NCBI GenBank assembly: GCA_022564295.1 | Contig: JADFLR010000020.1 | Location: 1-64,000, forward strand | Direction: 5' to 3' | From: Bacteroidota bacterium | Lineage (GTDB): Bacteria; Bacteroidota; Ignavibacteria; Ignavibacteriales; Ignavibacteriaceae | DNA: 64,000 bases | In this document: in pieces, positions 26,639-27,071 of the stretch | Layout of the letters: every line of letters starts with the position of its first letter | How positions within the stretch are numbered: position 1 is the first letter of the stretch | Made by a program: the position numbers and the translations under genes | Notes under the pieces: model-generated | The model's input: only the letters and a program-made list of their open reading frames with translations | Told to the model about the DNA's origin: nothing | Databases searched by the model: none

Positions 26639-26711
26639 ACTCCGCGTGTAATCCCGCCCTTGTCGGGAGAACTTACATCCCGAAAGCCTTCCAGATAAAT
26701 GCCGAATGTTC
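26639..26711 (-). other. Diverged tRNA-Asn-like remnant after the GIY-YIG gene
   Basis: Three blocks are shared, in order, with the intact tRNA-Asn (27000-27071): CTCCGCGTGTAA (26639-26650, the acceptor 3' strand and T-stem), GAACTTACA (26669-26677, T-arm) and GCCGAATG (26701-26708, anticodon stem). The T-loop part is expanded by a small hairpin (TCCCG...CGGGA) and the anticodon loop is replaced. The D-arm and the 5' acceptor strand are missing. It cannot be a functional tRNA. The GIY-YIG stop codon (26710-26712) lies exactly at its edge. Confidence 0.6.
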
Positions 26712-26967
26712 ATAAAATAATTTCACCATTAATTAATTTTTCAATCATCTTTTTACTTTTCCATCCTTTTACCTTTTTCTCTGCTGCCATCGCTTCAGCT
26801 TTAGTCTTAAACTTTTTTGTAAACACTATCTCCCACAGACGGTATCTCGAAGTAAATCCTCTTTCTATTGTGTTATGATATTCTAATCTTCTATGTGAGT
26901 TCTTTGAAACGCCCGTGTAATATTTATAAACCTTTATTGATCTTAATATGTATAAATTATATTCCAT
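26710..26967 (-). CDS. Small GIY-YIG domain protein between tRNA-Asn and a tRNA-like remnant
   Basis: An 85-residue single-domain GIY-YIG endonuclease-fold protein: YNLYILRS (first strand), YYTGVSKN (the YIG strand, here YTG), an Arg-containing helix RRLEYHN, and Glu in AEAMAAEKKVKG as the metal ligand. I use the ATG at 26965-26967; the frame stays open into the tRNA upstream, but that part is translated tRNA. No clear ribosome binding site precedes the ATG because a terminator hairpin sits there. Family members are structure-specific or homing-type nucleases; function is not established. Confidence 0.75.
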   Translation of the reverse strand: MEYNLYILRSIKVYKYYTGVSKNSHRRLEYHNTIERGFTSRYRLWEIVFTKKFKTKAEAMAAEKKVKGWKSKKMIEKLINGEIIL

Positions 26968-26971
26968 ATAT

Positions 26972-26997
26972 AAAAAATCCGGCAGCTGCCGGATTTT
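26972..26997 (-). terminator. Terminator of tRNA-Asn
   Basis: Near-perfect 24-base palindrome (AATCCGGCAG/CTGCCGGATT) followed on the minus strand by a run of Ts. It lies between the tRNA 3' end and the GIY-YIG start, so it should block most read-through into that gene. Confidence 0.8.
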
Positions 26998-26999
26998 AG

Positions 27000-27071
27000 C
27001 TCCGCGTGTAAGACTCGAACTTACAACCCTTCGGTTAACAGCCGAATGCTCTACCATTGAGCTAACGCGGA
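27000..27071 (-). tRNA. tRNA-Asn (GUU)
   Basis: A 72-base cloverleaf: TCCGCGT/ACGCGGA acceptor, GCTC/GAGC D-stem, anticodon stem TTCGG/CCGAA around loop CTGTTAA (anticodon GTT), T-loop TTCGAGT, discriminator G. No CCA encoded. Confidence 0.93.

Follow-up and report, generated by a model that had tools for sequence, protein, structure and literature searches.

A candidate minimal mobile element that may home to tRNA genes: a single-domain GIY-YIG nuclease gene between an intact tRNA and a hairpin-bearing tRNA copy

Introduction

The closest described counterparts of the locus analysed here are the SegB-type GIY-YIG homing endonucleases of T-even phages, whose gene lies beside tRNA genes and shows a strong statistical association with them (PMC13096335). 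SegB promotes segmental amplification of a tRNA-containing segment and is implicated in cutting tRNA-containing sequence, and its authors consider that amplification likely starts with cleavage, followed by homologous recombination (PMC13096335). The present locus shares with SegB, as far as the accessible part of that account goes, a GIY-YIG gene adjoining tRNA genes and the association with tRNAs. The accessible part reports no favoured isotypes and describes no hairpin-bearing partial tRNA copies (PMC13096335), whereas the present nucleases form isotype-specific clades and the present elements carry such copies. SegB is moreover phage-borne, whereas no relative of the present protein was found in viral contigs, phages or plasmid records at the thresholds used, and a phage or plasmid origin was set aside on this ground.

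REP/BIME repeats with RAYT enzymes offer a second comparison, being small palindromes dispersed between genes and linked to the gene of a small DNA-processing enzyme (PMC2817692, PMC3116915, PMC3733652). Dispersed intergenic palindromes, in the form of a TCCCGA hairpin, are found here as well. In the accessible parts of those accounts the enzyme is a tyrosine transposase, whereas here it is a GIY-YIG protein and the hairpin is built into a tRNA copy; no Y1 transposase gene accompanies it, the GIY-YIG frame being the only same-strand ORF of at least 50 codons within the module. A third comparison is the Ssn family of small GIY-YIG single-strand-specific nucleases, for which hairpin-like NTS repeats occur in the Neisseria genome and near the gene. 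The likeness lies in the pairing of a small GIY-YIG protein with a repeated genomic hairpin sequence that is also present near its gene. We know of no coupling of Ssn nucleases to tRNAs, and their link to the present protein would run only through a correlation of hairpin counts. Among solved proteins, UPF0213 and Slx1 are nearest to the present protein in sequence and fold; to our knowledge neither is mobile or tRNA-linked. Slx1 processes branched DNA, according to the titles of its structure entries.

The locus lies in a window of 64,000 nucleotides, the whole stretch of DNA analysed (contig JADFLR010000020.1, positions 1 to 64,000, of the Ignavibacteriaceae assembly GCA_022564295.1). The original prediction, made from the window alone, was of a minimal tRNA-associated element that possibly homes to tRNA genes. 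We propose that positions 26640-27071 are probably one copy of a minimal mobile element that homes to, and amplifies at, tRNA genes; comparative sequence data support its mobility and target specificity, and cleavage would be the inferred step. The parts are of known kinds; what appears to be new is their combination, in which minimal GIY-YIG elements follow tRNA identity and carry hairpin-plugged copies of a tRNA. Searches of the open-licence PubMed Central literature yielded no report of a chromosomal GIY-YIG element that is linked to a tRNA and accompanied by hairpin-bearing copies of it.

Results

Structure of the tRNA-Asn locus

The features of the locus are as follows.

26999..27071, minus strand: intact tRNA-Asn(GTT), called by ARAGORN; Rfam RF00005 at 27000-27071 with 72.2 bits
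about 26972..26997, minus strand: intrinsic-terminator-like hairpin and U-run, AATCCGGCAGCTGCCGGATTTTTTA on the minus strand, read by eye from the sequence
26710..26967, minus strand: GIY-YIG gene of 85 codons plus stop (ATG 26967, TGA 26710-26712), from the ORF and PF01541
26640..26709, minus strand: hairpin-disrupted pseudo-tRNA-Asn, from about nucleotide 21 to the 3′ end, from alignment and from homologous pseudo-tRNAs at the same place in relatives
26652..26668, minus strand: hairpin TCCCGACAAGGGCGGGA within the T-arm of the pseudo-tRNA, from the sequence; compare TCCCGACAAGGTCGGGA in genome G002
26678..26695, minus strand: decayed hairpin TCTGGAAGGCTTTCGGGA in place of the anticodon arm's 3′ side, from the sequence and comparison with relatives

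The original prediction had described a tRNA-Asn, its terminator, an 85-residue GIY-YIG gene and a tRNA-like segment in this order, and the description proved correct by ARAGORN, Rfam, the ORF and PF01541, the terminator being judged by eye. It had also placed the stop codon exactly at the edge of the remnant, where it lies (TGA at 26710, remnant from 26709), so that the pseudo-tRNA starts immediately past it, and the extra T-loop hairpin that it had mentioned is located at 26652-26668. The nuclease ATG is a few bases past the terminator U-run. As anticipated for N-termini translated from a tRNA, the nuclease frame stays open back through tRNA-Asn to 27057, which gives 115 amino acids instead of 85; the open frame at 26968-27057 is an annotation trap, as gene callers may add an N-terminus translated from tRNA-Asn.

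The alignment score of the pseudo-tRNA against tRNA-Asn was 29, which 0 of 2000 shuffles reached (best shuffle 28), and the best-scoring other place in the window gave 25. Judged from the window alone the match is only moderately significant; it is the relatives that make the case. In G002, from the same genus as the window genome (G000), the same stretch consists of CGGCTGTTA, the hairpin TCCCGATGCAGTCGGGA, TGTAAGTTC, the hairpin TCCCGACAAGGTCGGGA and TTACACGCGGAGC. This is the 3′ part of tRNA-Asn with TCCCGATGCAGTCGGGA standing in for the 3′ side of the anticodon arm and with TCCCGACAAGGTCGGGA in the T-arm. By this comparison, the window pseudo-tRNA is a decayed version of a G002-type copy with two hairpins, the first decayed and the second still recognisable.

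Of the nine GIY-YIG places in the window's own genome, all but the one in the window lack a tRNA in the 1.5 kb fetched on each side, so the pattern is visible only through other genomes. Five of the small GIY-YIG genes of this genome (L001-L004 and L009) adjoin differing palindromic repeats, as seen by eye, and not tRNAs.

The nuclease protein

The 85-residue window protein matched PF01541 (E=1.6e-11) and has the domain with the conserved active-site Tyr, Arg and Glu of the GIY-YIG superfamily; Y6, Y17, G19, R27, H31 and E63 are invariant in 22 members picked for diversity. The Asn-clade alignment that contains it has 14 rows. An AlphaFold2 model was confident, with a pLDDT of 89.3. The nearest solved protein by sequence was UPF0213 (E 1.7e-7), which was also the best Foldseek hit (E 1.5e-3), followed by Slx1, with no Foldseek hit reaching E 0.001. 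The protein is single-domain, as 85 residues leave no separate DNA-binding domain. NCBIfam gave no match and PHROGs gave only E 0.085. A model of the locus as a defence system was rejected upon finding no PADLOC match.

tRNA genes and tRNA pieces beside related nuclease genes

A search with the protein against the window's own genome and 58 relatives, 59 genomes in all, gave matches in at least 52. The loci examined were the best-ranked among the matches listed, ranked by similarity to the window protein, and comprised 93 loci with 123 distinct ORFs. In these best-ranked loci ARAGORN called a tRNA within 400 bp of 76 of the 123 GIY-YIG ORFs (65 loci), one of the 76 called tRNAs, in G004, being a hairpin-bearing copy that ARAGORN still calls. 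The strand was shared in 76 of 76 cases. The neighbouring tRNAs were those for Asn, Asp, Pro, Ser (four anticodons), Arg, Gly, Ala, Lys, Met, Val and Leu. No tRNA was called within 400 bp of the other 47 ORFs, in some cases owing to contig ends.

With called tRNAs masked, the 250-nt flanks held same-strand tRNA pieces upstream of 49 and downstream of 54 of the 123 ORFs, at a BLAST threshold that misses the decayed pseudo-tRNA of the window itself. There were none on the opposite strand of these flanks and none in 437 control segments from the same loci. The module that was to be sought at other tRNA genes is thus present in many genomes and at many isotypes, and the recurrence of tRNA remnants beside GIY-YIG genes, with their absence from the controls, bears out the idea of a minimal tRNA-associated element. 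It is the pieces in relatives, too, that exclude a chance match as the source of the three blocks shared by the tRNA and the remnant, the margin in the window alone being small (29 vs 28).

The nuclease had been predicted to be flanked by a tRNA 3′ part, like an att duplication. The main layout is of this kind, in the order tRNA, (terminator), nuclease and tRNA 3′ part, and 40 of 43 downstream pieces extend to the tRNA 3′ end. There is also a mirror form in the order tRNA 5′ part, nuclease and intact tRNA, in which 17 of 17 upstream pieces begin at tRNA nucleotide 1-3; in three loci of this form that were viewed (L098, L100 and L101), the nuclease gene starts within, or immediately past, what was once the anticodon loop. 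As to the likeness to an att duplication, a flanking tRNA 3′ part is present, but it is not a clean att site, because the inner end points of the pieces vary by isotype and locus, and so define no single cut site, and because hairpins are usually inserted.

Draft assemblies often break at these tRNA loci, with contig ends in G021, G029, G049, G004 and G010, so array sizes and calls of absence are lower bounds. The draft genome G004 holds two tandem tRNA-Asn copies (L015/L091, G004:C222:60-313) that ARAGORN calls as tRNA-Asn(gtt) and that carry a TCCCGATAAGATCGGGA hairpin in the anticodon arm; these copies are probably non-functional. No intact tRNA-Asn was detected in the assembly.

Scanning GTDB genomes with the Asn-clade alignment identified 76 loci, partly overlapping the first set, with titles including Ignavibacteria, Chlorobium and other Chlorobia, Balneolaceae, Flavobacteriia, Pedobacter, Chryseobacterium, Cecembia and Belliella. 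A called tRNA lay within 500 bp in 46 of the 76, on the same strand in 45 (Asn 33, Val-TAC 6, and others), and a tRNA piece was present on the same strand in 47 and on the opposite strand in 0. At the 50 loci away from a contig edge, 41 had a tRNA or tRNA piece and nine had neither; for loci without a same-strand tRNA nearby a single tRNA-Asn query was used, which may miss pieces of other tRNAs.

The nuclease tree and tRNA identity

The nuclease tree was built from 86 domains, one row per locus, over 77 columns, with rows shorter than 65 residues excluded; 68 of the 86 rows were labelled with a tRNA, six of them by the tRNA piece since no tRNA was called in the stretch. Many forks are weak, 40 of the 83 inner branches being open. 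The amino acid of the adjacent tRNA (11 states on 68 rows) requires 14 changes on this tree, against a mean of 43.7 and a range of 39-49 in 200 shuffles. Host genus requires 58 changes (shuffles 55-62, mean 59.5), a test of low power with 37 states on 68 rows, and host family 19 (shuffles 16-24). These counts support a tree that follows tRNA identity, with no host signal detected in a test of low power. Proteins of the same isotype from different host families reach 77% identity, and those of different isotypes within a genus share 31-51%.

The clades are mostly, not strictly, restricted to one amino acid, and serine clades mix anticodons. There are two separate Asn clades, both of which are present in one array in G033; the third copy in G002 is identical to the second Asn clade at 39-45 of 72 positions vs 22-28 of 72 for the first. 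Next to the Asn clade lies a clade of ten GIY-YIG domains (L124, L129, L144, L153, L027, L117, L151, L130, L131 and L148) for which no nearby tRNA was called and no tRNA piece detected.

Occupied sites, empty sites and arrays

The tRNA-Asn locus lies between the same flanking genes in G000 and G002. By the Nei-Gojobori method the nuclease genes of the two differ by dN 0.053 and dS 0.197, against dS of 1.565 and 0.845 for the flanking genes; the difference from the less diverged flank has a Fisher p of 2e-6 with approximate site counts. From the tRNA to the nuclease stop codon, 339 of 364 bases are identical, and in the 300 non-coding bases upstream 182 of 346 aligned positions are. The dN/dS of about 0.27 (0.053/0.197) places the nuclease protein under purifying selection. 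The 800-residue neighbour is 81, 75, 55 and 55% identical to that of G000 in G002, G004, G049 and G040, respectively, and the nuclease 89, 64, 63 and 59%; by these nuclease identities (64 vs 63), G004 of the same genus and G049 of another family are equally distant.

Comparison of empty sites, as had been suggested, identified one in G005 of the same genus, where the tRNA lies near the same CcsA-like gene, the only flank compared, with neither a nuclease gene nor a tRNA piece. Near the same CcsA-like gene in G024, of another genus, is a nuclease of the other Asn clade. The genes thus have the distribution by which free-standing homing endonucleases of the SegB type are recognised, at the target gene in some genomes, absent from relatives and spreading, as seen in the occupied and empty sites and the low nuclease dS. 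Together with isotype-specific clades and no detected host signal, this lends support, at the level of sequence comparison, to the homing to tRNA genes that the original prediction had raised as a possibility.

In the sixteen arrays measured, periods were 301-445 bp and adjacent copies were 44-100% identical; a tRNA-Asp array in G006 has five copies at a 315 bp period that are 100% identical. Two units were displaced from their tRNA gene. The first, L020, keeps its tRNA-derived flanks about 21 kb from a tRNA-Asn gene on the same contig, its fetched stretch holding tRNA pieces and no intact tRNA, and the second, L150, has tRNA-Asp pieces and no intact tRNA in the fetched stretch. In G054, the same nuclease match occurs near both ends of one contig (C1:2134-2364 and 3733550-3733780), which is perhaps an overlap of a circular chromosome.

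Hairpins inside the tRNA copies

Pieces scoring below 36, longer than 170 nt or with masked bases were excluded from the analysis of tRNA pieces, which left 91. A perfect non-tRNA stem of at least six pairs was present in 72 of these, against 13.3 expected from dinucleotide shuffles, and several of the remaining pieces carry imperfect hairpins. A search for the pseudo-tRNA-Asn motif CGRCTGTTA ... TGYARGT gave 58 copies, 50 of them with a hairpin in place of ACCGAAGGGT and eight with no clear terminal stem; since the motif sets the sequence on either side of the insert, a copy whose hairpin lies at another position escapes it. The remnants, which the original prediction had suggested aligning for a conserved fold, do have hairpin arms that covary: pairing holds in 224 of 245 pair cells over 35 distinct inserts, where 2000 shuffles gave at most 211, and pair 7 occurs as C-G, T-A, A-T and G-C.

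The commonest hairpin, TCCCGA-N-TCGGGA, is also dispersed through the genomes, with 998 exact copies summed over the 59. In the window's genome the pattern TCCCGAN{2,10}TCGGGA occurs 34 times vs 1 for the reversed pattern. Inspection of 20 stretches of 0.6-0.8 kb placed 20 of 22 such hairpins outside open frames of at least 90 codons. G029 has 114, many of them clustered near low contig coordinates or on short contigs, which suggests a hairpin-rich repeat that the assembly leaves unresolved.

Some of these hairpins are associated with other palindromes. The small GIY-YIG gene L009 of the window's genome (G000:C26:75021-75280) has the palindrome TCATTGCGA..GAAGCAATC on both sides, the two copies being in inverted orientation; at G000:C20:8963-9055 the members of a similar pair are 16 bp apart, and the TCCCGA hairpin forms the middle of this repeat in three of ten listed places. 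By eye, many of the dispersed TCCCGA hairpins reside in the loops of other palindromes, but a strict outer-stem test gave no clear excess over a mismatched-flank control (4 of 22 vs 14%), and a second repeat pattern had a single match. This is recorded as an observation and not as support.

Discussion

Alternative explanations

The main rival to a mobile element is an Ssn-like nuclease with a host role: a site-specific single-strand nuclease would bind the dispersed TCCCGA..TCGGGA hairpins and shape DNA uptake or recombination, and its tRNA setting would be incidental. Genome counts speak partly for it. The median number of TCCCGA hairpins is 24.5 in 16 genomes with an Asn-clade nuclease vs 6 in the other 43 (p 5e-5), a larger difference than that of the control hairpin TCCGCC in the same groups (4.5 vs 2, p 0.037); the 16 were assigned from the match list, counting G003, whose copy is broken, and G021, whose copy is cut off by a contig end. 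In the genus to which the window's genome belongs, genomes with the nuclease have 32, 66, 24 and 32 hairpins and those without it 4 and 6, and the covariation of the hairpin arms at one place in the pseudo-tRNA would also suit a bound site. However, G029, G007 (49 hairpins) and G030 (34) are rich in the hairpin without an Asn-clade nuclease. Specificity of the nuclease clade for the hairpin is only suggestive, because TCCCGA hairpins accompany the Asp and Pro clades too and the total GIY-YIG count correlates with both the TCCCGA and the control hairpin (rho 0.36 and 0.60). A host role would moreover leave two things unexplained, the tracking of tRNA identity by the clades and the presence of pieces of that same tRNA on the flanks of the gene. 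We consider it unlikely.

Alternatively, the arrangement could be a neutral by-product, in which tandem duplicates of tRNA genes decay, the dead copies pick up ordinary repeat hairpins, and a GIY-YIG gene is retained close by through coincidence. Among the 52 tRNA-Asn rows examined, eight of the 34 without a nuclease gene indeed have tRNA pieces nearby. One of them, L053 (G030:C1), has an array of eleven units upstream of its tRNA-Asn. The units are about 67 bp long and arranged head-to-tail, and each consists of a spacer and the 5′ part of tRNA-Asn, in which a TCCCGA..TCGGGA hairpin takes the place of the D-arm; no nuclease gene was found in the 3-kb stretch around this array. Against chance proximity, tRNA pieces accompany all 18 of the rows with a nuclease gene (two of these 18 being the hairpin-bearing G004 copies), the nuclease clades are isotype-specific, the protein is under purifying selection with a dS far below that of the flanks, and hairpins are in far more of the pieces than expected. 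This explanation is already disfavoured, and we regard it as improbable.

A toxin-antidote pair is another reading, in which the nuclease would cut the mature tRNA of its isotype and the transcript of the hairpin-bearing pseudo-tRNA, made through a leaky terminator, would act as decoy or antidote. Isotype-specific clades fit it, as does the terminator-like hairpin that precedes the nuclease, both in the window and at the Asn loci inspected, a layout that resembles type III toxin-antitoxin loci. It gives no reason, however, for siting at a tRNA gene in two mirror layouts, the solved proteins closest to the nuclease are UPF0213 and Slx1, the latter a DNA nuclease, and PADLOC matched nothing, which together make it a poor prospect. 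An integrase-type element, with the tRNA 3′ piece as an att duplication made by a site-specific recombinase, would account for the intact tRNA and the tRNA 3′ part at opposite ends of the module, but is scarcely credible given the variable inner end points, the 5′ mirror form and array periods that fit the nuclease ORF and little else, with no room for a recombinase gene inside the element and no fixed att repeat.

A proposed mechanism of homing and amplification

The preferred reading is thus a mobile element that homes to tRNA genes and amplifies there. It would consist of a single-domain GIY-YIG gene of about 80-100 residues and a truncated, hairpin-bearing copy of the same tRNA. The element would enter tRNA genes of the same identity in new hosts, with the intact tRNA kept on one side and the truncated copy on the other; this spare copy would be truncated on the side facing the nuclease gene and would usually bear a hairpin. 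Expansion into head-to-tail arrays of tRNA piece, (terminator) and nuclease would follow. The nuclease may cut either the tRNA gene or its hairpin-bearing copy, the substrate perhaps being single-stranded or cruciform, and host recombination across the tRNA homology could then copy the module in, as in homing, or amplify the array, as in the segmental amplification by SegB.

Against this reading, the adjacent intact tRNA is still a potential target, a situation that a classical homing endonuclease avoids. Insertion leaves that tRNA intact, and it is the spare copy that carries a non-tRNA hairpin (72 of 91 pieces). By replacing part of a tRNA arm the hairpin would inactivate the spare copy, and it might either hide this copy from re-cutting or be the recognition site itself. 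A bolder version, which we offer tentatively as the less probable one, is that these are the smallest protein-coding homing elements, each dedicated to an isotype, across Bacteroidota and Chlorobiota; essential and universally conserved tRNA genes would be their landing sites, they would spare the host by always leaving an intact tRNA, a mobile hairpin would plug the spare copy and mark or block the cut site, and the nuclease would spread such hairpins genome-wide.

Significance

If this reading is true, ordinary bacterial chromosomal tRNA genes would be homing sites for a large family of minimal nucleases, beyond the integrases and phage endonucleases. The occurrence of many small GIY-YIG genes beside tRNAs, with frames left open back into the tRNA, would be explained as well. 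For the question of how a domain of 80 residues picks its DNA target, every isotype-specific clade would be a natural experiment, and as the commonest hairpin of the broken tRNAs is itself dispersed through the 59 genomes, the origin of a family of palindromic repeats might be traced to an enzyme in a testable way.
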